IMG/VR virus record: IMGVR_UViG_3300020424_000647
Coordinates: 1-40,237 of that record
Length of the DNA: 40,237 bases
Source of the DNA: a virus
Direction: 5' to 3' (one strand)
Shown here: piece after piece, positions 2,320 through 33,770 of the stretch
How the letters are laid out: each line of letters opens with the position of its first letter
Numbering within the stretch: the stretch's first letter is position 1
Translations under genes and position numbers: made by a program
Notes under the pieces: generated by a model
Databases searched by the model: none
What the model saw: only the letters and a program-made list of their open reading frames with translations
What the model was told of the DNA's origin: nothing

Positions 2320-2369
2320 TAGTTGCCTCGTTAATATATACTATTATTACTTATGATGAAACTGCTTGT

Positions 2370-2377
2370 CATAAATA
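2370..2377 (+). promoter_or_regulatory. Late-type box CATAAATA before plus-strand cassette
   Basis: CATAAATA differs by one base from the T4 late consensus TATAAATA and sits 53 nt before the chosen ATG at 2431. No equally good site lies between it and the gene. It is the likely promoter of the five-gene plus-strand block. Confidence 0.5.
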
Positions 2378-2430
2378 TTTTTATATACACATATTATAAC
2401 AATTTCCATCCAAAGTCAAGAGAAATATCC

Positions 2431-3282
2431 ATGAATCTGAATCATTATGAAATCGAGTACAGTAACAATCCATACGAGGTTTGGAATAGCCTAGAAACTT
2501 TGCCACCGGTTAGTCCAGATGGCCATGATAGTTTATATGAATTTTGTAAATTAACTAGTAGATATCACTTCGATAGTAACAGAGATGATAGAGAGTTAAT
2601 TGGAACAAATTTAAGTCCAGTCATTCCTATATGCAGGTTTAGAGGAGATTGGGCAGACGAAGTTAAGTCAATGTATGAAAAGTCAACACCTGCTACATTT
2701 GATTATCGCAGTAGTCCAAGACGGGAGATTACAAATAGTTTTGAAGAAAATGACTTTCGTAAATGGGGATATGATATTGACGGTGGATATGCAATAAACA
2801 ATCGTACTATTTTAGACATTGGTAAAGTTATACCCAACGACCCTATCAAAAGATTTGAACGCACTGACTTTGTAAAAAAGATACAAAGTATGTTTGCTTT
2901 ATCTACTCCATTAGCAATTAAACTTGATACACAAAAACCAGGGCAATGCTTTTACTGGCATTTGGATAATTTTGGTGGTATGCTAAGACGTCTGCGTAAA
3001 GATTATGACCAAGAATTTGAAGGTGATGTTGATCAAAGAAAGTTAATGCGTTTTATTGTATTCTTAGAAGATCAAGACTTAGGACATCAGTGGCAACAAG
3101 GAAACTTACTACTCAAATGGAAGAAAGGTGATTGTATTACCTGGCCATGGAGAGATATACCTCATGGTACTGCTAATTATGGACATACCAATAGACCAAC
3201 ACTAAACATAACTGGTATTGTTACAGATCAAACATTAGAATTTTTAAAGTATGCTTCAGAAAAAGATTATATCGACATTTAG
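2431..3282 (+). CDS. Putative Fe(II)/2-oxoglutarate-type oxygenase (paralogue A)
   Basis: This 283-aa protein has the metal-binding pattern of the double-stranded beta-helix oxygenases: H177-x-D179 in YWHLDN, H245 in PHGTAN and an Arg at 255 in RPTLNITG that could bind 2-oxoglutarate. The N-terminal third has a RYHFD motif (44-48) shared with three paralogues at 6478, 17203 and 20661. I chose the ATG at 2431 because AAGAGA lies before it; an earlier in-frame ATG at 2353 would sit upstream of the late box. It heads the plus-strand cassette. Substrate is unknown. Confidence 0.75.
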   Translation: MNLNHYEIEYSNNPYEVWNSLETLPPVSPDGHDSLYEFCKLTSRYHFDSNRDDRELIGTNLSPVIPICRFRGDWADEVKSMYEKSTPATFDYRSSPRREITNSFEENDFRKWGYDIDGGYAINNRTILDIGKVIPNDPIKRFERTDFVKKIQSMFALSTPLAIKLDTQKPGQCFYWHLDNFGGMLRRLRKDYDQEFEGDVDQRKLMRFIVFLEDQDLGHQWQQGNLLLKWKKGDCITWPWRDIPHGTANYGHTNRPTLNITGIVTDQTLEFLKYASEKDYIDI

Positions 3283-5765: not shown

Positions 5766-6497
5766 ATGGAATACAAAGGCAAAGACTTAATACTAGCAAT
5801 GGGAGCACCAGGTAGTCGCTGGAGTGGAACTATTAGACTACTATCATTAATGCATAGAGAAATTAATCGTACTGACGAAACTGACGATTTAAAATATGAT
5901 CGGTACTACATTGATGAACACGGTAGAGAGCGAAGCATTGGTTGGCATAGAGGTGCATATTGGGGACCTTATCATACCTATGGACAAAAGTTTGATACTA
6001 TGGACATAACCAAAGACGAAGCCATTGCAGAGTTTAAGGCACCTTATGCTTGGTGGGATAACGGAATAAAAATAGTAAAGAGTCATTGGTTTAGTTATCA
6101 CATTCCGAAACTACAGGAATGGTTTCCAGAAGCAACATTACTATGCTTTTATATGGAAGACCAAGAATGTTTTGATTGGTGGCACGAAGTAGGCGGTTGG
6201 GATATTGAATATCCACACTATGATTGGTACAAAGATGATGAAGGTATGATGAGACAGATTACTGCTGAAAATGATGAACTACGCAAACACTTTGATTTGA
6301 AAATTTATAATAATTATGATCTAAGTAAACATCTTGGATTATCAGAGGATATTCGCACAGTTGATGAAATGAATGATATCGATGACAAAATTCATTCTGC
6401 ATTTGGTAGAACTTTTACAGAGGACCAAAAAATAGAAATGGTAAACATGATTAGTTCACGTACAAAAGTAGGGGTTATTAAACCTCAACTTCAATAG
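5766..6497 (+). CDS. P-loop protein, sulfotransferase-like
   Basis: The 243-aa protein starts with a strand and GAPGSRWSG (13-21), like the 5'-phosphosulfate loop of sulfotransferases. A second conserved-looking stretch (KIVKSHWFSYHIPKL, about 102-116) sits where the 3'-phosphate site would be. It is rich in Trp and Tyr. It is the last gene of the plus-strand cassette and overlaps the convergent 6478-7455 gene by 20 nt. A second sulfotransferase-like gene at 16568 is also next to an oxygenase-like paralogue. It could instead be another P-loop transferase. Confidence 0.6.
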   Translation: MEYKGKDLILAMGAPGSRWSGTIRLLSLMHREINRTDETDDLKYDRYYIDEHGRERSIGWHRGAYWGPYHTYGQKFDTMDITKDEAIAEFKAPYAWWDNGIKIVKSHWFSYHIPKLQEWFPEATLLCFYMEDQECFDWWHEVGGWDIEYPHYDWYKDDEGMMRQITAENDELRKHFDLKIYNNYDLSKHLGLSEDIRTVDEMNDIDDKIHSAFGRTFTEDQKIEMVNMISSRTKVGVIKPQLQ

Positions 6498-7455
6498 TAG
6501 GACGACCATCTAGTGCATCGTCAATAAGTCCTTGCAATTTATCACCAACAAATCCAGTTATTTGAAATGTAACTCTTGGAGTGAATCCAAAGTTTGCAGT
6601 ACCGTGTGGCATATTACACCAGTCGTAAGTTACACATTCTCCTGACTTATATCCTTGATGGTATGTATTTCCAAACTGCCATACATGTCCTATTTCCCAA
6701 TCTTGTAAATGTATTAGCAATCTGCGTAATTTTAATGGGTTAGTATCTGCTCCTGCATCTGTCCATTGCTTACGTCTATCTGGTCTTGCATATCTCATTT
6801 GTTGATCTATATGTGCTTGTGTAACTTGTCCTAGATATTGTATGTGTAAACGACTCATATGTACATCCATCTCAAGCCAATCTTGTATTCTATGTAATAC
6901 TGCATAAACATCTTTATCATTTGAATTCTTTTGCACGTCTGTTTTACGCAAGATAGGAACTTTGTGCATGGCAACAACATCTTCCTTTTGTCCACCGGTA
7001 GCACGTTTAATATCCATCATTTCAGCATCATGCAAATCTTTATCCTGCTTTGAATCGTTGCGAGCACGATAGTTTCCTATACTCATTGGAACTCCGTCAT
7101 TATCTCCATGCTTACAAACTTCTGTAAAGTCATTGGTAAAACGTACAGGAACAATAAATGTTTGTTCACTATAAGGATCTCTAAAAGGATCAAAATGCCA
7201 TGTACTACGCGACTTGTTATGTTGCCAGCGACTTGGAACTCCATCTACTTTAAATATGTTATCCATATCTTTATGGCGTTCTAGTTGTTTATCACTGTAC
7301 ATTTCATCTATATAATTACTATCTTTTTGTGTATCACCTTTTACTTCTTCTGGTACTTCGTCAGGAACTAGGTCTTTGATTTTGTCATCGGAGTAATAGT
7401 TTAAGCCTTCTGCATTCTTTTTAAGTTTATCTTCTTTAAATTTATTAATTGACAT
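6478..7455 (-). CDS. Putative Fe(II)/2-oxoglutarate-type oxygenase (paralogue B)
   Basis: The 325-aa protein has an acidic N-terminal extension (about 1-65), WHFD (86-89), then H215-x-D217, H284 in PHGTAN and R294 in PRVTFQITG, matching paralogue A. The start at 7455 is preferred over an in-frame ATG six codons earlier because AGGAAG lies 8 nt before it. It overlaps the upstream P4H-like gene by 11 nt and is probably co-transcribed with it. Confidence 0.72.
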   Translation of the reverse strand: MSINKFKEDKLKKNAEGLNYYSDDKIKDLVPDEVPEEVKGDTQKDSNYIDEMYSDKQLERHKDMDNIFKVDGVPSRWQHNKSRSTWHFDPFRDPYSEQTFIVPVRFTNDFTEVCKHGDNDGVPMSIGNYRARNDSKQDKDLHDAEMMDIKRATGGQKEDVVAMHKVPILRKTDVQKNSNDKDVYAVLHRIQDWLEMDVHMSRLHIQYLGQVTQAHIDQQMRYARPDRRKQWTDAGADTNPLKLRRLLIHLQDWEIGHVWQFGNTYHQGYKSGECVTYDWCNMPHGTANFGFTPRVTFQITGFVGDKLQGLIDDALDGRPTIEVEV

Positions 7456-8155
7456 TTTTTGGCTTCCTTTCACTATACCAACCTACTAGGCTATATCTGT
7501 TCATTCCTGCCCTACTCACCGGACTTACAAAGTGTTTGTTAAAATTTGGTTTACTAACATCTAATATTACAAGTCTGTTTCCTAGTGGGGCAATAGTAGT
7601 GTGGACTCTATCTTGTTCATCTAACAAACATAAATCTCCACCCCAGTGTTTTTTCCAAACTTTATTAAAATAAAACAAGTATGCTACTTTCCTGGTAGGA
7701 TCATAGTGCGGAGTAATCCAATGATTCTTATTGTAGTAACTAAAAGTAGGAAATGCAGTATAAAGATGCTCAAACCCTGTAACAGTTTCTATATAATCTT
7801 TTAAACGCCCACCTCTTACTATGTCTTGTGTAAACTCTTGTACAAGTTCAGATTCAAATTTTGTGTCCATACCTACTAAACTAATGCGGTGATAATATGA
7901 GAAATCATGGTCATGTGCTTTACTAGCAATTTCATTTCCTAGTTCATTTGCACGTTCTTTTTCTTGCCATGGAATAGTTTCATAATAATCATCATACCCT
8001 CCTCTTGCATCATAATTAATGTTAGGAGCAGTTGTATATAATTGTTCTATGTATTTCTGATCTAATACACTATCTATAGCAATATAGCCTTTGTTTTTAA
8101 ATGTTACTGTTGCTTCCTTGAGAGCCCCAGAAGTAAAGATTCCAATATTATACAT
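7445..8155 (-). CDS. Prolyl-4-hydroxylase-like 2OG-Fe(II) oxygenase
   Basis: The 236-aa protein belongs to a different, more classical branch: H150-x-D152 in TPHYDPTRK, GGDLCLL (172-178), H208 in NKHFVSPV, and R220 in the NRYSLVGWY strand. These are the iron facial triad and the 2-oxoglutarate anchor. The family hydroxylates proteins or small molecules. A strong AAGGAGAA site precedes the ATG at 8155. It forms a two-gene operon with paralogue B. Confidence 0.85.
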   Translation of the reverse strand: MYNIGIFTSGALKEATVTFKNKGYIAIDSVLDQKYIEQLYTTAPNINYDARGGYDDYYETIPWQEKERANELGNEIASKAHDHDFSYYHRISLVGMDTKFESELVQEFTQDIVRGGRLKDYIETVTGFEHLYTAFPTFSYYNKNHWITPHYDPTRKVAYLFYFNKVWKKHWGGDLCLLDEQDRVHTTIAPLGNRLVILDVSKPNFNKHFVSPVSRAGMNRYSLVGWYSERKPKNVN

Positions 8156-13730: not shown

Positions 13731-13889
13731 TTATGCTCCATGCCCATATGTATCATAATCATAGTTTGGTAACTGTGATGCCCACAATTTATATAACATT
13801 ACTTCTCTGTCATATCCACCAACGTTTTCAGGTTTATCTACTTTAGTGTTTGATACAAAATCATTTTCGTCATCTGTATAAGGCCACAT
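13731..13889 (-). CDS. Small acidic Tyr-rich protein, 52 aa
   Basis: The frame starts MWPYTDDEND and ends DYDTYGHGA. AGGAG precedes the ATG, which overlaps the pseudoazurin stop by one base (TAATG), so the two are coupled. The product is acidic with no membrane segment. I believe similar small proteins occur in marine T4-like phages but can give no function. Confidence 0.8.
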   Translation of the reverse strand: MWPYTDDENDFVSNTKVDKPENVGGYDREVMLYKLWASQLPNYDYDTYGHGA

Positions 13890-14323
13890 TATAGTTCTCC
13901 TAATAGTTTCTTAAGTTTCTTTTTGCTTTTTCCTAATGCTTTTGCTTTTGCAATGTCATCTTTGTTACTTACGTCACCACCTACAACAACTAAACCAATC
14001 ATACCCATTGCTTTGTGTGGTGTACATAGATAATAATAAATTCCAGGTATTTCAAATGTAATTTTTACCTCTTTATTATTTTTTGACTTCTTTGGAATAT
14101 CAAAACCCTTTGGTGCCGCAATAATTTGTACATTGTGGCCTTTTGATTTTGGTTTCCAAATAATTGTGTCGCCGACATCAATTTTTGCAATATCTTCGGA
14201 ATAAACCATTTTTTCACCATCGGCACGTTTATTCAACATGTCAATTGTGATGTCTTTTGCATATGCTAGATTTGCAAAAAATACAAATCCAAACACAGTT
14301 GCTATAAATCCTAATGCCTTCAT
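13889..14323 (-). CDS. Pseudoazurin-like blue copper protein
   Basis: A signal peptide (about 1-22, ending AYA) leads a cupredoxin. The four type-1 copper ligands are present: H63 in KGHNVQ, then C100, H103 and M108 in CTPHKAMGM. Fold and spacing match bacterial pseudoazurin, including an MLNKR start strand and a helical Lys-rich C-terminus. Such proteins carry single electrons in the periplasm, to nitrite reductase or cytochrome oxidase in bacteria. It overlaps the upstream gene in an ATGA junction. Confidence 0.92.
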   Translation of the reverse strand: MKALGFIATVFGFVFFANLAYAKDITIDMLNKRADGEKMVYSEDIAKIDVGDTIIWKPKSKGHNVQIIAAPKGFDIPKKSKNNKEVKITFEIPGIYYYLCTPHKAMGMIGLVVVGGDVSNKDDIAKAKALGKSKKKLKKLLGEL

Positions 14324-16567: not shown

Positions 16568-17203
16568 CTAAACTGCACCTTTTTTACTACTTGCTAATTT
16601 AATTGTGTCATCTAAAGGGGAATGGTTTACAAAGTTTATATACTTTGTGTTAGCATCTTTTATCAAAATATCATTCAATAAACTTACGTCATGATCCATA
16701 CCAATAATACCTAGTTGATCTTCTAGTGTTTCCAAATATCTTACACCGTATAAGTTTAAAAGTTCTTGGCTGGCATATATAACTTTTTTGTCATCAAAAA
16801 AGTCCATTGTATCTAAGAACATTGGAGTGGTATGTTTTTCTCTCACACGTTGTTGCTGGTGTTTTAAAATAGTTTGATCTCTACCAAGTATGAGATATTT
16901 TACTCTGGCATATTTACTTGCATGTTTGTGGAACATTGCATAGTTGGGTATAGTTTCAACACCATCATCAAAATAAGGACAACTAATACTGGTATAAAAA
17001 TGTTTTGCTTCTGTCCAATCAAAGTTTTTAAGTAAACTAGGATCTTTCCAATACTCAGCAAAAGGCTCCATATCATGCCCTTCCCAGTATTTTTCTTTTA
17101 AGGAATCCCAGCCTTTTACATCTTGTGTTGCTCCAAATGCCTTGGCAAACAAGTGATTACCAGAACCTTGAGGCCCTGTAGCAATAATTAATGTAGGTTT
17201 CAT
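16568..17203 (-). CDS. P-loop protein, sulfotransferase-like
   Basis: The 211-aa protein opens IIATGPQGSGNHLFAKAF (about 6-23), a P-loop as in sulfotransferases and kinases. A later strand (VKYLILGRDQTILKHQQQR, about 101-119) suits the 3'-phosphate-binding segment. It shares no obvious sequence with the 5766-6497 protein beyond the fold. It is coupled to oxygenase paralogue C by a TAATG junction. Transfer of sulfate is inference; a nucleotide or sugar kinase is the alternative. Confidence 0.6.
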   Translation of the reverse strand: MKPTLIIATGPQGSGNHLFAKAFGATQDVKGWDSLKEKYWEGHDMEPFAEYWKDPSLLKNFDWTEAKHFYTSISCPYFDDGVETIPNYAMFHKHASKYARVKYLILGRDQTILKHQQQRVREKHTTPMFLDTMDFFDDKKVIYASQELLNLYGVRYLETLEDQLGIIGMDHDVSLLNDILIKDANTKYINFVNHSPLDDTIKLASSKKGAV

Positions 17204-17940
17204 TATACAGTAAGTAAAATTTTGTCTTTGTGTCCGCTGGCTAAAATTTCTCTTGTTCGGTCTGTCTTTAAACCAGTAACTTGTAGTGTTGGACGTGGAT
17301 GACTACTTGCATTACAAGTTGCATGAGGTACATTTGGCCAATCAAATATGTGTGCTTCACCTGCCTTCCAATGACTGTAAACATGTGTGCCATACATATA
17401 AAATTGTCCTGGTTGCCAATCCTCTAGCATAATTGTAATACGAGCTACTCTTTCTGGATCTTCTGGACAACGGTCCCAAAGTTTATCTATATGATAGTTA
17501 AACATTTGTCCTGTAAGTTGTACATGGGCACGTTTTTTAGCCCCTCTTGTGCCAACTTCCATGCCAAAAAAGTCCATCATTTTATAAAGTGTTGGAAAGT
17601 CTGCCCAATCATCTACAATGTTTGTTAACAAAAGATCTTTTGGTTTACCACCACCCCTGGCAATGTCGTATTCTTCTTGCACTAGCATAGGAGATTCTTT
17701 ATCAGTATCTCCAAAGTACTTTCTTGTTTGCCAATTGATGGGTTTGCTATTTTCTACTAGCCTATCTGATTCTTCTTTCCAGTCGCCTTCAAATCTGCCA
17801 ATTATATCGTACCAGTCTCCTGGCTTATCTATAATATTTTTATCAAAATGATATTCACTGTGTGCAACTGTCCAGTCCCAACTTGATTGATATGCATCTG
17901 TGTTTTCTAATTGTTTACTCCAATTTGTATCATTATACAT
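17203..17940 (-). CDS. Putative Fe(II)/2-oxoglutarate-type oxygenase (paralogue C)
   Basis: The 245-aa protein has the shared YHFD (30-33) and the motif set H150-x-D152, H206 in PHATCN and R216 in RPTLQVTG, so all putative metal and cofactor residues are kept. It overlaps the tctA stop by 8 nt and the next P-loop gene by the TAATG junction. Its location after a transporter and before a sulfotransferase-like gene hints at processing of the imported compound, but that is speculation. Confidence 0.72.
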   Translation of the reverse strand: MYNDTNWSKQLENTDAYQSSWDWTVAHSEYHFDKNIIDKPGDWYDIIGRFEGDWKEESDRLVENSKPINWQTRKYFGDTDKESPMLVQEEYDIARGGGKPKDLLLTNIVDDWADFPTLYKMMDFFGMEVGTRGAKKRAHVQLTGQMFNYHIDKLWDRCPEDPERVARITIMLEDWQPGQFYMYGTHVYSHWKAGEAHIFDWPNVPHATCNASSHPRPTLQVTGLKTDRTREILASGHKDKILLTV

Positions 17941-19441
17941 AATCTAATCCTTTATCTTTTCTAACTAAACTATTTATAAATATGCCCACTGCTACTAAAA
18001 CACAAATTACAAAGATAGGATGATTGTAAATATTAAATAGATCTAACCATCTAATATCTGCGAAAGCCGCGTATCCTTCTTTCCATTGCTTGTAACCATA
18101 CAACTGTAGTGTTCCCCAAAAGTATTGATCAATTTTAAATGCTACAACATATGCAACAAGTATTGCTGGTCTACTAATGTTGTAATATTTACAAACACAA
18201 CCAATTGCACTTAATATTGTTAATAATGCTAAGTCTTCCCAACCACCTGTGTATTGCATATTTGCATAAATGATTACTGCTAAAATAAATGCGGCATAAA
18301 TCCAAAATGGAACTTCTAATACTTTGAGAATATATTTGTAGCAGAATATACTTAATAATGCTACGCCAATTGTTCCAAATATGTATCCAAATGCTAGACT
18401 ATTTGTAAAGTTTAAATCATTTAACAAATCTGGTGTTCCAATTTCCATACCAAAGTACATACAAATTGCCATAACCATAGCGGCAAATGGTGCGGCTGGA
18501 ATGCCAAACAAACAAGCAGGAATCATACTAGATACCTTTTGTGCATTGTTTGCTCCTTCGCAACCTAATAATCCTACTGGATTTCCTTCACCAAATGGAA
18601 CTTCTTGATTCTTTTCTTTGTGTGCGGCCTTAGTTGCTCCGTATGCTAAAAAGTCTCCTACGGCTCCCCCTACGCCTGGTAGTAGTCCTGTGACAAAACC
18701 AATTGTTCCACCACGTGCCATATCTCTCCAATGCTTTTTGCAATCGCCAAGGCCTTCTCGTAAACCATCAAAGTAGTTTCCGTCCATTGGCGGTGCCGCT
18801 GATTTAAGTTTTCGTCTAAATCCATCTAATAGTTCTGGAACTCCAAATAGTCCTGATAGTAAAACTACCATACCAATTCCGTTTTGTAAGTATTCCCAAC
18901 CAAAAGTTAGTCTAGGTTTACTGGTTACAGTTTCTCCAACCATACCAACTGCTAGTCCAAAAATGATTGCAATAATACTTAAGAACACATTTTTACTGGC
19001 TACAAAGCCTACACAGGCTAATGCCATCATCATAAAACCCAAGAATTCAGGGCGTCCAAATAATACTATAATCTTTCCATAATATGGAAGTAGGAAGAAA
19101 GTTAATGCCGCAAAAATTACTCCATTAAAAGTTGAGTCAGTAATAGCAATACCCATTGCTCTTGCCGCTTGACCTTTCTTTGCCATAGGATAACCGTCAA
19201 TAACACATGCCGCAGTAGTACTTGCACCTGGAATACCTGTTAAAATACTTGTGTAACTGTCTGCACTTGCACAACTTGCCACAATTGCAGTAAGAAAAAC
19301 CAACCCTAAGTAAGGATCGGCCATAAAATAGGTTCCCATGCTAAAGACAGTTATCAGGGCGGTAGTTACACCTGCAATAGGTATAATACCAACTAGCATT
19401 CCATACATGGTGCCAATTAAAGCCCAGATAACATAGTCCAT
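17933..19441 (-). CDS. tctA: Tripartite tricarboxylate transporter large permease TctA
   Basis: The 502-aa protein has about twelve membrane helices. It has the TctA signature near residues 68-95 (ILTGIPGASTTAACVIDGYP, then MAKKGQAARA), and a second Gly/Pro-rich loop GLLPGVGGAVGDFLAYG around 255-271. The length is typical. In bacteria TctA works with the small subunit TctB and the binding protein TctC to import citrate-like acids. The binding protein is next door; no TctB-like gene is seen. It is complete, without frameshift. Confidence 0.93.
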   Translation of the reverse strand: MDYVIWALIGTMYGMLVGIIPIAGVTTALITVFSMGTYFMADPYLGLVFLTAIVASCASADSYTSILTGIPGASTTAACVIDGYPMAKKGQAARAMGIAITDSTFNGVIFAALTFFLLPYYGKIIVLFGRPEFLGFMMMALACVGFVASKNVFLSIIAIIFGLAVGMVGETVTSKPRLTFGWEYLQNGIGMVVLLSGLFGVPELLDGFRRKLKSAAPPMDGNYFDGLREGLGDCKKHWRDMARGGTIGFVTGLLPGVGGAVGDFLAYGATKAAHKEKNQEVPFGEGNPVGLLGCEGANNAQKVSSMIPACLFGIPAAPFAAMVMAICMYFGMEIGTPDLLNDLNFTNSLAFGYIFGTIGVALLSIFCYKYILKVLEVPFWIYAAFILAVIIYANMQYTGGWEDLALLTILSAIGCVCKYYNISRPAILVAYVVAFKIDQYFWGTLQLYGYKQWKEGYAAFADIRWLDLFNIYNHPIFVICVLVAVGIFINSLVRKDKGLDYV

Positions 19442-19453
19442 TAGTTTAGTCCT

Positions 19454-20506
19454 TTACTTTAAAAGTTCAGGCTTGTAAATTGATGGGAATCCATATGCTT
19501 CTTGATTCCACTTAACTGCATCTTTTAGAGCTTTCTCTGTAATCAATGATTTAAGTGCTTTCAATAATGCTGGACCATCTTGAATCCAAGGATACTCACC
19601 TGTCTTAGCATAAATTTCTGCACTAGCAACTGGATCATTAATCATTGCAGTTACCGCCGCTTTAATTTTTGCCGCATTAGGATTACCTTTGTTTACCCAA
19701 AGTGACTTTTGAATTGCATCACGCCAGTTACGGGTAAGTTTATATGCATTGTATAAGTCGCCTTTTGGCTTTTCACCCCATAACTTTTCATACACATCTT
19801 CAAATTGTGTGTTTGGAAAGTTTGGATCTGGAATTTGTACGTTATTTTCTAAATCTAAAATACCATGTGTAAACCAAAGTTCATTGCCTGGAATACCTGT
19901 GTAAAAACGCTTCCAAGCCGCTGGTGATTCACGTGCTACATCAAATTCGCCGTTTTTAAAACCAAGACGTTTTTCTCCGCCTGATACACCGTTGACCCAA
20001 ATAAAACGCTCTCTCCAACATGCTAGGTATTCATCAACTGTATTGTTGCCCTGTGGACCACATACTAACATAGCCGCCGCGGCCGCATCTGGTTCAAAAC
20101 CTGATCCACCAGCAATAGTCCATGTTCCAGTCTTTTCATCTTTACCTTCTTGTTTACCAAGAACGATATCGTTGTTCATTGAACCCATAAGCTCATAGTC
20201 AAAGTAGTTGTAATCAATCTTATCTAGTAAGTATGATACACCATTTCCACCATGTGCTACCATGATTGTTTTATCATCGAAACGTAGGCTATTATGGAAT
20301 TTGTTAAAACCTGGAATATCTCTTGCTCCAGGAATATGACGAACCACTACTGGCTCACCAATAAACTTTTCTAAGTTTTTTGCAATGATTTCGCTCCATA
20401 CACTAGTACCTTTGCCCGGTGCTTGTGGAACAATCAAGGTATAATCTGCCATGGCACTAGTAGCCATAAACATCGAGGCGATTAAGCCTAAAAATAGTTT
20501 TTTCAT
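19454..20506 (-). CDS. tctC: TctC-like periplasmic substrate-binding protein
   Basis: The 350-aa protein has a signal peptide (about 1-20, ending AMA), then YTLIVPQAPGKGTSVWSEII and EPVVVRHIPGARDIPG, as in the Bug/TctC family. These captured-solute proteins carry carboxylates such as citrate, benzoates or amino acids to TctA. The extra Cys pair (about 150-164, LVCGPQG to LACWRE) is unusual. It is 13 nt upstream of tctA. A 154-nt leader with a late box precedes it. Confidence 0.88.
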   Translation of the reverse strand: MKKLFLGLIASMFMATSAMADYTLIVPQAPGKGTSVWSEIIAKNLEKFIGEPVVVRHIPGARDIPGFNKFHNSLRFDDKTIMVAHGGNGVSYLLDKIDYNYFDYELMGSMNNDIVLGKQEGKDEKTGTWTIAGGSGFEPDAAAAAMLVCGPQGNNTVDEYLACWRERFIWVNGVSGGEKRLGFKNGEFDVARESPAAWKRFYTGIPGNELWFTHGILDLENNVQIPDPNFPNTQFEDVYEKLWGEKPKGDLYNAYKLTRNWRDAIQKSLWVNKGNPNAAKIKAAVTAMINDPVASAEIYAKTGEYPWIQDGPALLKALKSLITEKALKDAVKWNQEAYGFPSIYKPELLK

Positions 20507-20660: not shown

Positions 20661-21392
20661 CTAAACATCAATTACAATTATTTCTGAGTTGGAATCTTCT
20701 ATTAATTGTTTTGTGTGTTTAGTGACATATCCGGTTAACTGTAGCATAGGACAAGAATACCAACCAGTGTTAACCCAACTGTAAGGTACATTAAACCAAT
20801 CCCATGTTATGCAATCGCCTTTGCTCCAGTGTGACCAAATTTCTGTGCCAACGCACATTACTTGGCCAAACTTCCAATCGTCAAGTGCGATCATAAATCT
20901 TGACATTGTTTCAGGTTGCTCATCCATTTTAACAACCTTAAATGAATTCTTTCTTTCTTTTCGTGCCGCTAAGTTATCAATATGTAAATGAAACATGTGT
21001 CCAGTTCTTTGATTTTTAAACATGACATCATAATCTCTTAAACCAAGTTGCTTTGCCATATTATCAAAAACTTCAATGTCATCAGCAACACAATGTTCAA
21101 AAATAGGAGCCTGTGGATTTGCTCCTGCCCTTAGTAAATCCATTTGCTCTGACCTGCCACTGAACACTGGTTCTTTTTTATCGTAAGGACCGTATACATG
21201 ATGATTTCTATTTGCCCAGTTTACTTCAAGGCATCTATCAAACATATCTTGCAGATCCCATTCACCAGCAAATTGACAAACTTCAATATAATCTTCTGTT
21301 TCTTGTTTTGGGTCAAAGTGAAAGTTACTACGTTTAGTAGTGAAGTTCCATCTACTATCGTTATAATTTTCAAATTTATTTAGAGGTTTCAT
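20661..21392 (-). CDS. Oxygenase-like paralogue D with lost catalytic residues
   Basis: The 243-aa protein aligns with paralogues A-C over its length: FHFD (24-27), H137-x-D139 in HLHIDN, DDWKFGQV, WSKGDCITWDW. The distal His of PHGTAN has become Tyr at 204 (NVPYSWVN) and the Arg has become Cys at 214 (CPMLQLTG). The fold is kept while iron and 2-oxoglutarate binding are probably lost or changed. The ATG at 21392 forms an ATGA overlap with the previous gene, which favours it over a start 4 codons earlier. Confidence 0.7.
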   Translation of the reverse strand: MKPLNKFENYNDSRWNFTTKRSNFHFDPKQETEDYIEVCQFAGEWDLQDMFDRCLEVNWANRNHHVYGPYDKKEPVFSGRSEQMDLLRAGANPQAPIFEHCVADDIEVFDNMAKQLGLRDYDVMFKNQRTGHMFHLHIDNLAARKERKNSFKVVKMDEQPETMSRFMIALDDWKFGQVMCVGTEIWSHWSKGDCITWDWFNVPYSWVNTGWYSCPMLQLTGYVTKHTKQLIEDSNSEIIVIDV

Positions 21393-21610
21393 ATATACAT
21401 CCAAACTAACATAGGTATTATAATAGCAAATTGTGGAAGAAAGTTAAGTATAATTGCTTTCTCATTCCAACGCCAACCTACATATATCCAACCAGCGGCG
21501 CCAATCATCTGTAGTATGCTATTCCACGGTGTTGCACCTGCAACGTGCAGTATCATTGCTAATAATATAGTTATGGCACTTCCGTACTTGATTACTGTAA
21601 TGTGATTCAC
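21389..21610 (-). CDS. Small membrane protein, 73 aa
   Basis: Two or three hydrophobic helices (about 8-25, 30-46 and 55-73) fill the protein; GWRWNEKAI is the only polar loop. It overlaps the nucleotidyltransferase gene by 4 nt and paralogue D by 4 nt. It may belong to a small marine membrane family such as DUF6552, which I cannot confirm. Confidence 0.7.
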   Translation of the reverse strand: MNHITVIKYGSAITILLAMILHVAGATPWNSILQMIGAAGWIYVGWRWNEKAIILNFLPQFAIIIPMLVWMYI

Positions 21611-23180: not shown

Positions 23181-23934
23181 TATAATACTCGCTTAACTTT
23201 TCAAATTCTTTATTGTACTTACCATCAATAATATCATTTATATATTTTGTACTTGTAAAAGGCTGAATCTCTGCAGTTAAATAAATGCCTTCGTTTTTAT
23301 GTGTGTTACCTGGTAATACAATAAACTTACATTTTGCTTTAATAGCGGCATATGCTTCGTGATGTCTACCAGTTACCAGTAGATCGCAATGTCTCAATCT
23401 GTTTACAATTTCATTCCAATCTTGTTTAAAGATATTAATCTTTGGCACTGGCGGACTTAAATCGTTGTCGTTGTAAAACCATTGTCCTTGATATACTTTG
23501 TTATATTTGTATTCTACATATTCAACGTGAGGAATAATGCTACGATCTGGCTTTACTATACTATCTATGTTGTGATTATTTTTAAGTTCTTTATGTGATA
23601 AAATATCTCTTACTTCAATAACACTACATTTTTGTAATACATCATCAAATTCATTTGTCATTTCCTGCCAAACTGTATTTACAAGTTGTGTTTCACATCC
23701 TGCAAGTTGTGCATTTCGTAATGCACCTAAAAATTTTATAGGATTTTGCCTTTTGTCAGCACGAGTATGATGCATAGTACCTTCGCCATTGAGTATAACT
23801 TTTGTATACTTTGCAAAGTTTACATCTACTTGTTGATTTGTTTCAATGCTATCATCAAACTCAAATGTTTCAATAACTTTTGAACAACCATGATGATATT
23901 TACTTGTGTTATTAAGTAATAATGTTTTAGACAT
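23164..23934 (-). CDS. Polysaccharide pyruvyltransferase-like protein
   Basis: The 256-aa protein has an N-terminal Rossmann-like half with VILNGEGTMHH and a C-terminal half with LLVTGRHHEAYAAIKAKCKFI and LPGNTHKNEG. These resemble the GGGT and RLHA motifs of the CsaB/WcaK family, which add pyruvate to cell-surface glycans. The ATG at 23934 overlaps the clpS stop by 8 nt; a TTG at 23943 is an alternative. Its target could be host or phage glycan. Confidence 0.72.
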   Translation of the reverse strand: MSKTLLLNNTSKYHHGCSKVIETFEFDDSIETNQQVDVNFAKYTKVILNGEGTMHHTRADKRQNPIKFLGALRNAQLAGCETQLVNTVWQEMTNEFDDVLQKCSVIEVRDILSHKELKNNHNIDSIVKPDRSIIPHVEYVEYKYNKVYQGQWFYNDNDLSPPVPKINIFKQDWNEIVNRLRHCDLLVTGRHHEAYAAIKAKCKFIVLPGNTHKNEGIYLTAEIQPFTSTKYINDIIDGKYNKEFEKLSEYYIGKSS

Positions 23935-24241
23935 CTTCCTCAATACGAACTTCTAAAGGATAACCGTCACGTCTAGCGGCTAATGTGACCTCAACTCCTT
24001 TTTGCTCAGCAAGTTCGTAAGGATAAACGGCAACAACTGCACTTCCTTCTTCGTGTATCTTAACCATCATTTCAGTAGCCTGCTCTTCTGTCATGCCAAA
24101 GTATGTAGTTAAAATCATAATTACAAATTCCATTGTAGTTGTTTCGTCGTTTAGAAGTATTACTTTCCAAAGATTAGGCTCTTTTACTTCAACCTCTTCA
24201 GATGTTTTTACTTTAACTTTTACTTCTGTGTCTGCACTCAT
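23927..24241 (-). CDS. clpS: ClpS adaptor protein
   Basis: The 104-aa protein follows the ClpS pattern: LWKVILLNDETTTMEFVIMIL with the N31-D32-E33 binding triad, then FGMTEEQATEMMVKIHEEG and H63. An extra charged N-terminus (about 1-22) precedes the core. In bacteria ClpS docks on ClpA, delivers N-degron substrates and blocks SsrA-tagged ones. It overlaps the next gene by 8 nt and starts the 20661-24241 operon after a 4-nt gap. Confidence 0.93.
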   Translation of the reverse strand: MSADTEVKVKVKTSEEVEVKEPNLWKVILLNDETTTMEFVIMILTTYFGMTEEQATEMMVKIHEEGSAVVAVYPYELAEQKGVEVTLAARRDGYPLEVRIEEDV

Positions 24242-25843: not shown

Positions 25844-26290
25844 TTATTTGATTTCAATAGTCTTTGGTTTCATTGCCTCTGGGACTATCTTTTGTAGGTG
25901 TATGCTTAAGATGCCATTATTTAAAGATGCATCTTTAACTTCAACATATTCTGCTAGGTTAAAAGTTCTTTCAAAGTTACGTCTACTAAGTCCTCTGTGC
26001 AAGTACTCATAACCGTCTGCTTCTTCCTCCGTACCGTCTGCTTTTTTAATTTGCTTTCCGCTTACAGTCAAAGTTCCATTTTCCATTGTAATATCAATGT
26101 CTGGCTTTAAAAATCCAGCGGCCGCAATTTCAATAAAGTAATGTTCGTCATCTTTACGAATTATATTATACGGTGGATAGTTTTGGTTGGATCCCATTTC
26201 CATGTTACTAATAATTGAATCAAACAAACTGTTGAATCCAATTGAGTTACGATAAAATGGGTTTAGGTCTAGTGAGGTAATTCTTGTCAT
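25844..26290 (-). CDS. Small heat-shock protein (Hsp20/IbpA family)
   Basis: The 148-aa protein has an N-terminal arm (about 1-35), an alpha-crystallin domain (about 36-130) with YNIIRKDDEHYFIEIAAAGF and the closing GILSIHL motif, then an IVPEAMKPKTIEIK tail. Such chaperones hold unfolded proteins; phage versions are common in marine T4-like viruses. AAGGAG precedes the ATG and is buried in a ROSE-like hairpin. Both a sigma70-type promoter and a late-like box precede it. Confidence 0.92.
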   Translation of the reverse strand: MTRITSLDLNPFYRNSIGFNSLFDSIISNMEMGSNQNYPPYNIIRKDDEHYFIEIAAAGFLKPDIDITMENGTLTVSGKQIKKADGTEEEADGYEYLHRGLSRRNFERTFNLAEYVEVKDASLNNGILSIHLQKIVPEAMKPKTIEIK

Positions 26291-31727: not shown

Positions 31728-31934
31728 TTAGGTTCCTGTATGAGCTGAGCCCAAAATTAACTCGTAAACACGATAGTTTTCTTCAAAGCCTTCTTCATGC
31801 AAATATGCCTCATTATTATTCCATAATCTTTTATGGTATTGATTATATGATTTTTCTATTTGACTAGGACTAACTTGAGTCAAGTCACCTTTGACCATAT
31901 AATAAACTCGACACTTTTCTTTGAAATTTTCCAA
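31728..31934 (-). CDS. Hypothetical protein, 68 aa
   Basis: A soluble, Tyr/Asn/Glu-rich small protein. The start is TTG at 31934, with AAGGAAG close upstream; an out-of-frame ATG overlaps it. It follows the tRNA-Arg gene by about 30 nt on the same strand. No family recognised. Confidence 0.65.
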   Translation of the reverse strand: MENFKEKCRVYYMVKGDLTQVSPSQIEKSYNQYHKRLWNNNEAYLHEEGFEENYRVYELILGSAHTGT

Positions 31935-33110: not shown

Positions 33111-33131
33111 AAAAAAACAACTTTTCTGTTG
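33111..33131 (-). terminator. Terminator of the tmRNA coding piece
   Basis: A CAAC/GTTG stem with loop AGAAAA is followed by seven T on the minus strand, directly after the tmRNA coding piece. The stem is short, so processing by RNase is an alternative. Confidence 0.6.
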
Positions 33132-33132
33132 C

Positions 33133-33289
33133 TAGGTAAGTTGCCAACCCCGAGCGATTATGCCGCTAAGGCAAAATCCTCATTTGCAAAATTATCGTTT
33201 GCATTTATAGTTTTGTTCGCGATAACCGTGCTTACATCCGGACAACTCCACACTTCTACTAATCTGTCTGTCGATCCTATTTCAACCCC
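33133..33289 (-). ncRNA. ssrA: tmRNA coding piece (tag ANDNFANEDFALAA)
   Basis: The 5' end GGGGTTG (33283-33289) is followed by a tRNA-like GGATCGAC, a P2 strand (AGTGTgGAGTTG), and a pseudoknot region. The tag frame GCA...TAA at 33158-33202 encodes ANDNFANEDFALAA, ending in the LAA recognised by ClpXP and ClpAP. A short stem follows. Its acceptor stem and P2 partner lie upstream at 33673-33733, so the RNA is the coding half of a permuted two-piece tmRNA. The 3' end is approximate. Confidence 0.92.
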
Positions 33290-33307
33290 ATTATAAAAAC
33301 ACGAATA

Positions 33308-33652
33308 TTAACTTGTGGTACCAATTAATGTCCATTTTTCGCCAAATGCCAGTATACAATAACTGTTATAATCTCTATGCCATTCTACTATAGTAAATTG
33401 ATTAGTAGTAGGATTTATATATAGACGCATTGGTAGTATTGCTGGAATTTCGCTAAGTCCATCTTTGGTTCTTACTGCGGCTAACATATCACCTGCACCT
33501 AGCATTATTTTTCCTTGATCAACCATTAATTTTTCAAATACTTCTTTTTGTTCACAAATAACAGGTTTGTCATTCCATTCGCCTGCGTGTGCAAGAAGTG
33601 TAATAACGAATATTACTAAAACTATGCCTAATCCAATCAATACTTGTTTCAT
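33308..33652 (-). CDS. Membrane-anchored or exported protein encoded inside the tmRNA intervening segment
   Basis: The 114-aa protein has one strong N-terminal hydrophobic helix (about 3-22, ending AHA), then a mixed domain with two cysteines (VICEQK, SYCILA). AAGG precedes the ATG at 33652. The gene fills 345 of the 383 nt between the tmRNA acceptor and coding pieces, with 20 and 18 nt at its ends. Thus one primary transcript may hold a message and both tmRNA halves. No family recognised. Confidence 0.8.
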   Translation of the reverse strand: MKQVLIGLGIVLVIFVITLLAHAGEWNDKPVICEQKEVFEKLMVDQGKIMLGAGDMLAAVRTKDGLSEIPAILPMRLYINPTTNQFTIVEWHRDYNSYCILAFGEKWTLIGTTS

Positions 33653-33672
33653 ATCAGCCTTTCGTGTGTTTA

Positions 33673-33733
33673 TGGTGGAGTTGCCGGGTACCGCCCCCGG
33701 GTCCAGTCCAGTGTTTGAATTGCTTCAACATTG
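33673..33733 (-). ncRNA. ssrA: tmRNA acceptor piece
   Basis: The 3' end CAACTCC-A-CCA pairs with GGGGTTG of the coding piece over 7 bp, including the G3-T70 pair that marks alanine tRNAs. A T-stem CCGGG/CCCGG holds a loop GGCGGTA, unlike the usual TTCAA. CAATTCaaACACT pairs with the P2 strand of the coding piece (two helices of 6 and 5 bp). CCA is encoded. The 5' end is estimated from the promoter at 33740-33770. Confidence 0.9.
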
Positions 33734-33739
33734 TAGTAG

Positions 33740-33770
33740 TATTTATAACATATATTAGCATATTAGTCAA
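33740..33770 (-). promoter_or_regulatory. Combined sigma70-type and late promoter of the tmRNA
   Basis: TTGACT (33765-33770), 17 nt, TATAAA (33742-33747) overlaps a perfect TATAAATACTACT late box (33740-33747 core). Transcription would begin near 33735, just at the acceptor piece, in both phases of infection. Confidence 0.75.

Follow-up and report, generated by a model that had tools for sequence, protein, structure and literature searches.

A phage-encoded two-piece tmRNA with a small protein gene in its intervening segment

When the transcript of a circularly permuted tmRNA gene is cut into two pieces by tRNA-processing enzymes, as is established (PMC11915505), the segment between the pieces is discarded. 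The locus described here raises the question of whether this intervening segment (IVS) can house a protein gene and whether one precursor can serve as both mRNA and tmRNA. The locus lies in the window, the whole 40,237-nt stretch of viral DNA that was analyzed (positions 1 to 40,237 of IMG/VR record IMGVR_UViG_3300020424_000647). An initial annotation had described positions 33133-33733 as a permuted tmRNA with a whole gene between its halves and had suggested a link between tmRNA maturation and expression of a membrane protein. Two-piece tmRNAs are known from the marine phages Melnitz EXVC044M and Mosig EXVC030M and are like that of the window in being phage-encoded, permuted and of the SAR11 type and in occurring in T4-like marine phages (PMC9004378). 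Phages account for 79 of the 97,179 sequences in the tmRNA database (PMC11915505).

A covariance search (cmscan) for alphaproteobacterial tmRNA matched both halves, in permuted order, under each of two Rfam models (RF01849 and RF04321), identifying the minus strand at 33747-33111 as a circularly permuted tmRNA of the alphaproteobacterial type (Table 1). The alpha_tmRNA match (33774-33114) scored 84.5 bits (E = 6e-23), covering positions 1 to 355 of the 355-position model against a gathering score of 50, and the tmRNA_permuted match (33734-33158) scored 84.1 bits, also above its gathering score. The acceptor piece is located upstream of the coding piece, as had been annotated, and the proposed piece ends at 33673 and 33289 were correct; the unit bounds of 33133-33733 were too narrow, omitting the promoter box and part of the 3' hairpin. 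A resume codon is present, the tag frame ends in -AA, the CCA is encoded, and the two pieces are joined by a seven-pair acceptor stem that includes G3.U70, the alanine identity pair. These features, together with the piece order and a discarded IVS, are shared with the alphaproteobacterial two-piece tmRNA of the Caulobacter type. The IVS itself differs: among 33 cellular examples it measures 22 to 67 nt and lacks an ORF with a Shine-Dalgarno site, whereas that of the window measures 383 nt and contains a 114-aa gene, so that the short noncoding IVS typical of this tmRNA type is absent here. No group I intron was detected by the Rfam search in the window tmRNA region, and the T loop is intact.

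Table 1. Features of the tmRNA locus in the window
Feature	Position	Strand	Basis
Promoter region: TTGACT 33770-33765, 17-nt spacer, TATAAATA 33747-33740 (T4-type late promoter box)	33740..33770	-	sequence
Acceptor piece: P2 strand, T arm, acceptor-stem 3' strand	33673..33734	-	cmscan, RF01849 and RF04321
Acceptor-stem 3' strand CAACTCC	33683-33677	-	followed by A, then CCA 33675-33673
IVS stem, 5' arm CATAAACACACGAA	33661..33674	-	duplex z = -4.2; covariation in 27 ORF-bearing IVSs
IVS, 383 nt, not in mature two-piece tmRNA	33290..33672	-	
Shine-Dalgarno motif AAAGG of nested ORF, 5 nt before ATG	33658..33662	-	
Nested gene, 114 aa, predicted small exported protein, W..KPV.C family	33308..33652	-	codon usage, homologs, AlphaFold2
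IVS stem, 3' arm TTCGTGTTTTTAT	33293..33305	-	
Coding piece: G1 at 33289, acceptor-stem 5' strand GGGGTTG, tag, 3' hairpin	33111..33289	-	cmscan, sequence
Tag reading frame ANDNFANEDFALAA plus stop	33158..33202	-	
3' hairpin with T run, terminator-like	about 33143-33111	-	

The 114-codon frame with its own ribosome site that had been noted in the IVS was confirmed; its ATG is located 20 nt after the CCA. Dinucleotide shuffles of the window spacer produced ORFs with a mean length of 15 aa, none of 300 reaching 114 (P = 0.003), and in-frame codon usage favored coding by 0.52 bits per codon, the remaining genes of the window averaging 0.44, and was negative in the five alternative frames. Free-standing homologs were detected in marine phage contigs L139 (E = 4e-22), L065, L018 and L188, in the last of which the homolog is placed directly behind the tmRNA, these relatives having come from loci that were collected with tmRNA patterns. 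All five proteins, that of the window and its four homologs, begin with a signal-peptide-like segment and have in common the pattern W..KPV.C ... E ... C....G. The product had been annotated as a membrane protein; with its signal peptide (AHA|GEW) it looks exported rather than integral to the membrane. In an AlphaFold2 model (mean pLDDT, 80.9), a helix precedes a small alpha/beta domain; the model gave no significant match in the PDB, the only resemblances being weak ones to unnamed phage proteins (best E, 1.5e-3). A search of solved structures with the ORF produced a single, nonsignificant match, no named family was found in Pfam or PHROGs, and no relative was detected when viral contigs were strictly scanned for the ORF. 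Since the structural matches were weak and unnamed, no function was given to the protein, which is best read as a small phage product that is exported or periplasmic.

Named phage records, searched at the DNA and protein levels with both the complete locus and the ORF, yielded no match, and this ORF was seen in this place once, in the 40-kb metagenomic virus contig that forms the window. The closest relatives (L122, L024, L053, L069 and L105) have the same neighborhood with an empty IVS of about 29 to 30 nt; four of them (L024, L053, L069 and L105) are 74 to 79% identical to the window in DNA across long stretches. The gene order of the window is absent from these five, and with their IVS empty the nested gene is dispensable. 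Comparison with these relatives also revealed two compensatory changes in the acceptor stem across the ORF (GGGGUUG/CAACUCC in the window and GGGGGCG/CGCCUCC in the relatives). Among 141 viral tmRNAs, the acceptor stem occurs in 12 versions, all with seven of seven positions paired and every one with G3.U70. Three contigs (L020, L065 and L108) had appeared to be without a coding piece, a reading that was rejected as ordinary coding pieces are present.

In other marine phages, this slot is occupied by different, unrelated genes. Patterns for the T arm and the acceptor end yielded 120, 92 and 24 virus-contig stretches in three partly overlapping scans, and these, together with named phage records, provided 148 distinct viral permuted tmRNAs, a set that was collected by exact patterns rather than at random and whose members are related. 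IVS lengths in this set form two classes, divided at 110 nt. An ATG frame of 30 to 114 codons, starting 12 to 23 nt after the CCA, was present in 36 of the 41 IVSs of at least 110 nt, 35 having a Shine-Dalgarno motif under a permissive definition; an early ATG frame with such a motif was found in none of the 107 shorter viral IVSs. Of all the IVSs found, that of the window is the longest. Three contigs (L124, L125 and L186) in which another ORF (MCPACYINGLLFLIF...) begins after the CCA were excluded from the count, the contig ending within the ORF. None of the 33 cellular IVSs falls into the ORF class. In one further bacterial order, 24 of 32 genomes were matched and all had short IVSs apart from one phage contig binned in a genome, so that the annotated view of the cellular spacer as short stands there as well. 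Contig PALK01000009.1 (L236) of a 'Rickettsiales' MAG matches virus contig IMGVR_UViG_2823577039_000001 in length and in its IVS ORF and is a phage contig that was binned with a bacterial genome. Some Rhodobacter and roseobacter phages have IVSs of 93 to 111 nt that are GC rich, structured and free of ORFs. In cultured phages, a 142-nt IVS with an unannotated 54-codon frame was present in Melnitz, while the 44-nt IVS of Mosig has no such frame. What had been described as a phage-encoded two-piece tmRNA with a real gene in a normally short spacer was, thus, upheld.

The IVS ORFs comprise about 18 families without detectable mutual similarity. Ratios of dN/dS were mostly 0.05 to 0.35 in families A, B, C and F and in pairs of family D with L014: 0.08 to 0.33 in family A (MEVIWHILLTVC...), 0.06 to 0.13 in family C, 0.35 in family F and 0.10 to 0.18 for family D against L014, the closest pairs within family D having too few changes for a reading. 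Family B exhibited no nonsynonymous and eight synonymous changes. Judged by these ratios, several of the families are under purifying selection. Related phages also have members of families A, B, F, I, W and others as ordinary genes, often less than 2 kb from the tmRNA. L171 and L196 carry family I in the IVS, and the window carries it as a free gene (31758-31928); family A fills the IVS of several contigs and, in Melnitz, whose IVS frame is a different one, lies immediately upstream of the tmRNA; and HMO-2011 has a free homolog of family D, with no tmRNA in the stretch of HMO-2011 examined. The occurrence of IVS families as free genes near the tmRNA points to repeated capture of neighboring small genes, and these observations speak for the IVS being a tolerated insertion slot that has repeatedly been filled by different small phage genes. 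As the slot gene differs among marine phages, the suggested tie between tmRNA maturation and one specific membrane protein is improbable.

The ends of the IVS pair as a stem of 10 to 14 bp that extends the acceptor stem, with two mismatches in the window. In 27 ORF-bearing IVSs, the combined helix has 17 pairs, 97.4% of them standard, and a covariation score of 0.368, compared with 0.103 when shuffled and at most 0.07 once the partner was slid. The minimum-energy fold of the 617-nt window precursor contains the T arm and has the acceptor stem and IVS stem as one helix with the ORF as a loop; its total energy is unexceptional relative to shuffles (z = -0.79). The ribosome site of the window was predicted to be unpaired with a value of 0.18 in the full precursor and 0.77 in the nascent RNA, and a low accessibility in the full precursor and a higher one in the nascent RNA were predicted for nearly all ORF-bearing members. 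All 16 distinct IVSs starting with TAAGGA have the Shine-Dalgarno motif inside the 5' arm and an ORF, the TAAGGA pattern having been picked after the ORFs were known, with the ORF pattern already present in the survey preceding that scan. The stop codons are often located just 5' of the 3' arm, or are a UGA 1 nt before G1 or a UAG at position +13 of the mature coding piece.

The only recognizable promoter box of the locus is located upstream of the acceptor piece. Of 144 viral permuted tmRNAs, 110 have the TATAAATA box upstream at a nearly constant distance (median, 75 nt before the CCA end); the box was absent from all 33 cellular tmRNAs and arose in about 1.4% of shuffles. Owing to its last base, the TTGACT-17-TATAAA box is missing from the hits of a sigma-70 scan. 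The late box was also observed at the usual place in Melnitz (L256, 2700-2730); the authors describing that phage infer an early promoter for its tmRNA (PMC9004378). With only 20 nt between the CCA and the ATG there is no space for a second promoter, and a single box upstream of the acceptor piece makes one transcript the only economical route of expression. The proposal that one transcript serves as both mRNA and tmRNA is, on this arrangement, probably correct.

We consider it likely that the locus works as one unit, in which a late promoter, a translated precursor, closure of the helix and cutting by the host follow one another and the IVS acts as a slot for captured genes. Transcription from the late-type promoter would produce a precursor comprising the acceptor piece, the nested ORF, the coding piece and the terminator-like hairpin. 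While the precursor is nascent, the ribosome site of the ORF would be open and the small exported protein would be translated. Once the coding piece is completed, the halves would pair, the acceptor and IVS stems forming one helix that leaves the ORF as a loop with its ribosome site buried. Host tRNA-processing enzymes, with RNase P acting at G1 and 3' processing at the encoded CCA, would then excise the ORF segment, and the resulting two-piece tmRNA could be charged with alanine. The two halves, the coding signature of the ORF, the conservation of the helix, the recurrence of some 18 families and the position of the promoter are present in the sequences themselves; from them we infer the cotranscription, the processing, the order of translation and processing and any coupling between the two, and likewise that the tmRNA and the nested protein are functional in the window.

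Three other accounts were weighed. The ORF may have broken the tmRNA on insertion, leaving remnants while the gene alone is used; the length of the window IVS and the failure of ARAGORN to detect the window tmRNA would fit, but each half exceeds the gathering cutoff by a wide margin, the tag and G3.U70 are intact, and the acceptor stem carries compensatory changes across an ORF whose flanking helix covaries in many ORF-bearing members, making this account very improbable. ARAGORN also missed eight of 10 other ORF-bearing cases tested while finding both short-IVS relatives tested. That the ORF arose by chance or is untranslated, with the long IVS serving as a structural spacer only, would have a parallel in the ORF-less structured IVSs of Rhodobacter and roseobacter phages; codon usage, the shuffles, the free-gene homologs and the purifying selection in other IVS families oppose it, and we regard it as less probable still. 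An assembly chimera joining a gene from elsewhere into the tmRNA is suggested by the existence of a single metagenomic contig with exactly this arrangement and is the least probable of the three, given that the IVS arms are complementary across the ORF, that codon usage matches the contig and that the same architecture is present in many independent contigs, some of 83 to 168 kb, and in cultured Melnitz.

A different proposal is that the tmRNA cannot mature while the nested ORF is being translated, and vice versa. A ribosome on the ORF would keep the IVS and acceptor stems apart and delay RNase P, slower initiation would favor the tmRNA, and, where the ORF stops inside the coding piece, cleavage would leave a stopless message that is a substrate of the tmRNA just freed. 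The Shine-Dalgarno site being in or against the 5' arm, as in all 16 of the TAAGGA IVSs, is consistent with such coupling, as are predicted unpaired values of 0.00 to 0.2 in the full precursor against 0.4 to 0.77 in the nascent RNA for many members and the stops that borrow tmRNA sequence (the UGA before G1 and the UAG in the coding piece). However, compactness alone could explain the overlap, many IVS ORFs, including that of the window, stop before G1, and the unrelated ORF families imply no common regulatory product. Coupling is, on balance, unlikely, and it is just as doubtful that the precursors of phage tmRNAs act as bifunctional, translation-sensing RNAs whose tmRNA output would report free translation capacity late in infection.

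One published parallel is a tmRNA with a group I intron carrying a LAGLIDADG endonuclease gene, which also places a protein gene in a segment removed on maturation (PMC11915505). In that case, a homing gene lies within a self-splicing intron that interrupts the T loop (PMC11915505), whereas in the window the removed stretch is the normal processing segment, without an intron, and the slot genes are unrelated small phage genes. The tmRNA database survey, the largest of its kind, lists one IVS with a tRNA-Ala gene and one with a repetitive element, and an IVS with a protein gene is not among the cases reported in the parts of it consulted (PMC11915505); likewise, no mention of an IVS gene in Melnitz or Mosig was found in the parts consulted of the paper describing them (PMC9004378). 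No published description of a protein gene in a tmRNA IVS was found in the open-licence literature, and a report elsewhere is possible. One reason why the arrangement could have escaped notice is that ARAGORN misses the tmRNA.

Several further observations concern phage tmRNAs and the window phage. Unusually long tags, such as ANDNALSNVTFVDFSAPVTAVNEDFALAA and ANDNFAPEAFTSLDMSMDRELIAA, were present in L026, L044, L051, L140, L095 and L117. In roseobacter phages MD18, DSS3_MAL1, V10 and DSS3P8 (L260, L261, L264 and L267), a GOLLD RNA is located just 5' of the permuted tmRNA. In Rhodobacter phage RcRudolph, the annotated hypothetical protein UUV44828.1 (L259, 1127-1462) overlies the tmRNA found there and probably stems from an erroneous gene call. 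The window itself encodes, on the minus strand, an Hsp20 protein (25844-26290) and a protease adaptor that we read as ClpS-like (23927-24241; PHROG annotation, 'ATP-dependent protease'). ClpS steers ClpA away from tagged proteins, and the phage may adjust the degradation of tagged products. Also on the minus strand are a plastocyanin-like exported copper protein (13889-14323; PHROG 515) and, judged by eye only, apparent genes for a TctA-like tricarboxylate transporter permease and a TctC-like binding protein (17933-19441 and 19454-20506), an unusual phage cargo. A similar C-terminal pattern, PHGTAN...P.L..TG, is shared by apparent scattered paralogs at 2353-3282 (plus strand) and at 6478-7473, 17203-17940 and 20661-21404 (minus strand).

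Annotation programs tend to overlook either the tmRNA or the nested gene, and the nested slot would yield dozens of unannotated small phage proteins. The locus would point to late expression of phage tmRNA. Competition between translation and tmRNA maturation is directly testable, and cultured Melnitz could be used now. The finding shows that protein genes can repeatedly be housed in the part of a processed noncoding RNA that is thrown away, so that a tmRNA precursor may double as an mRNA.
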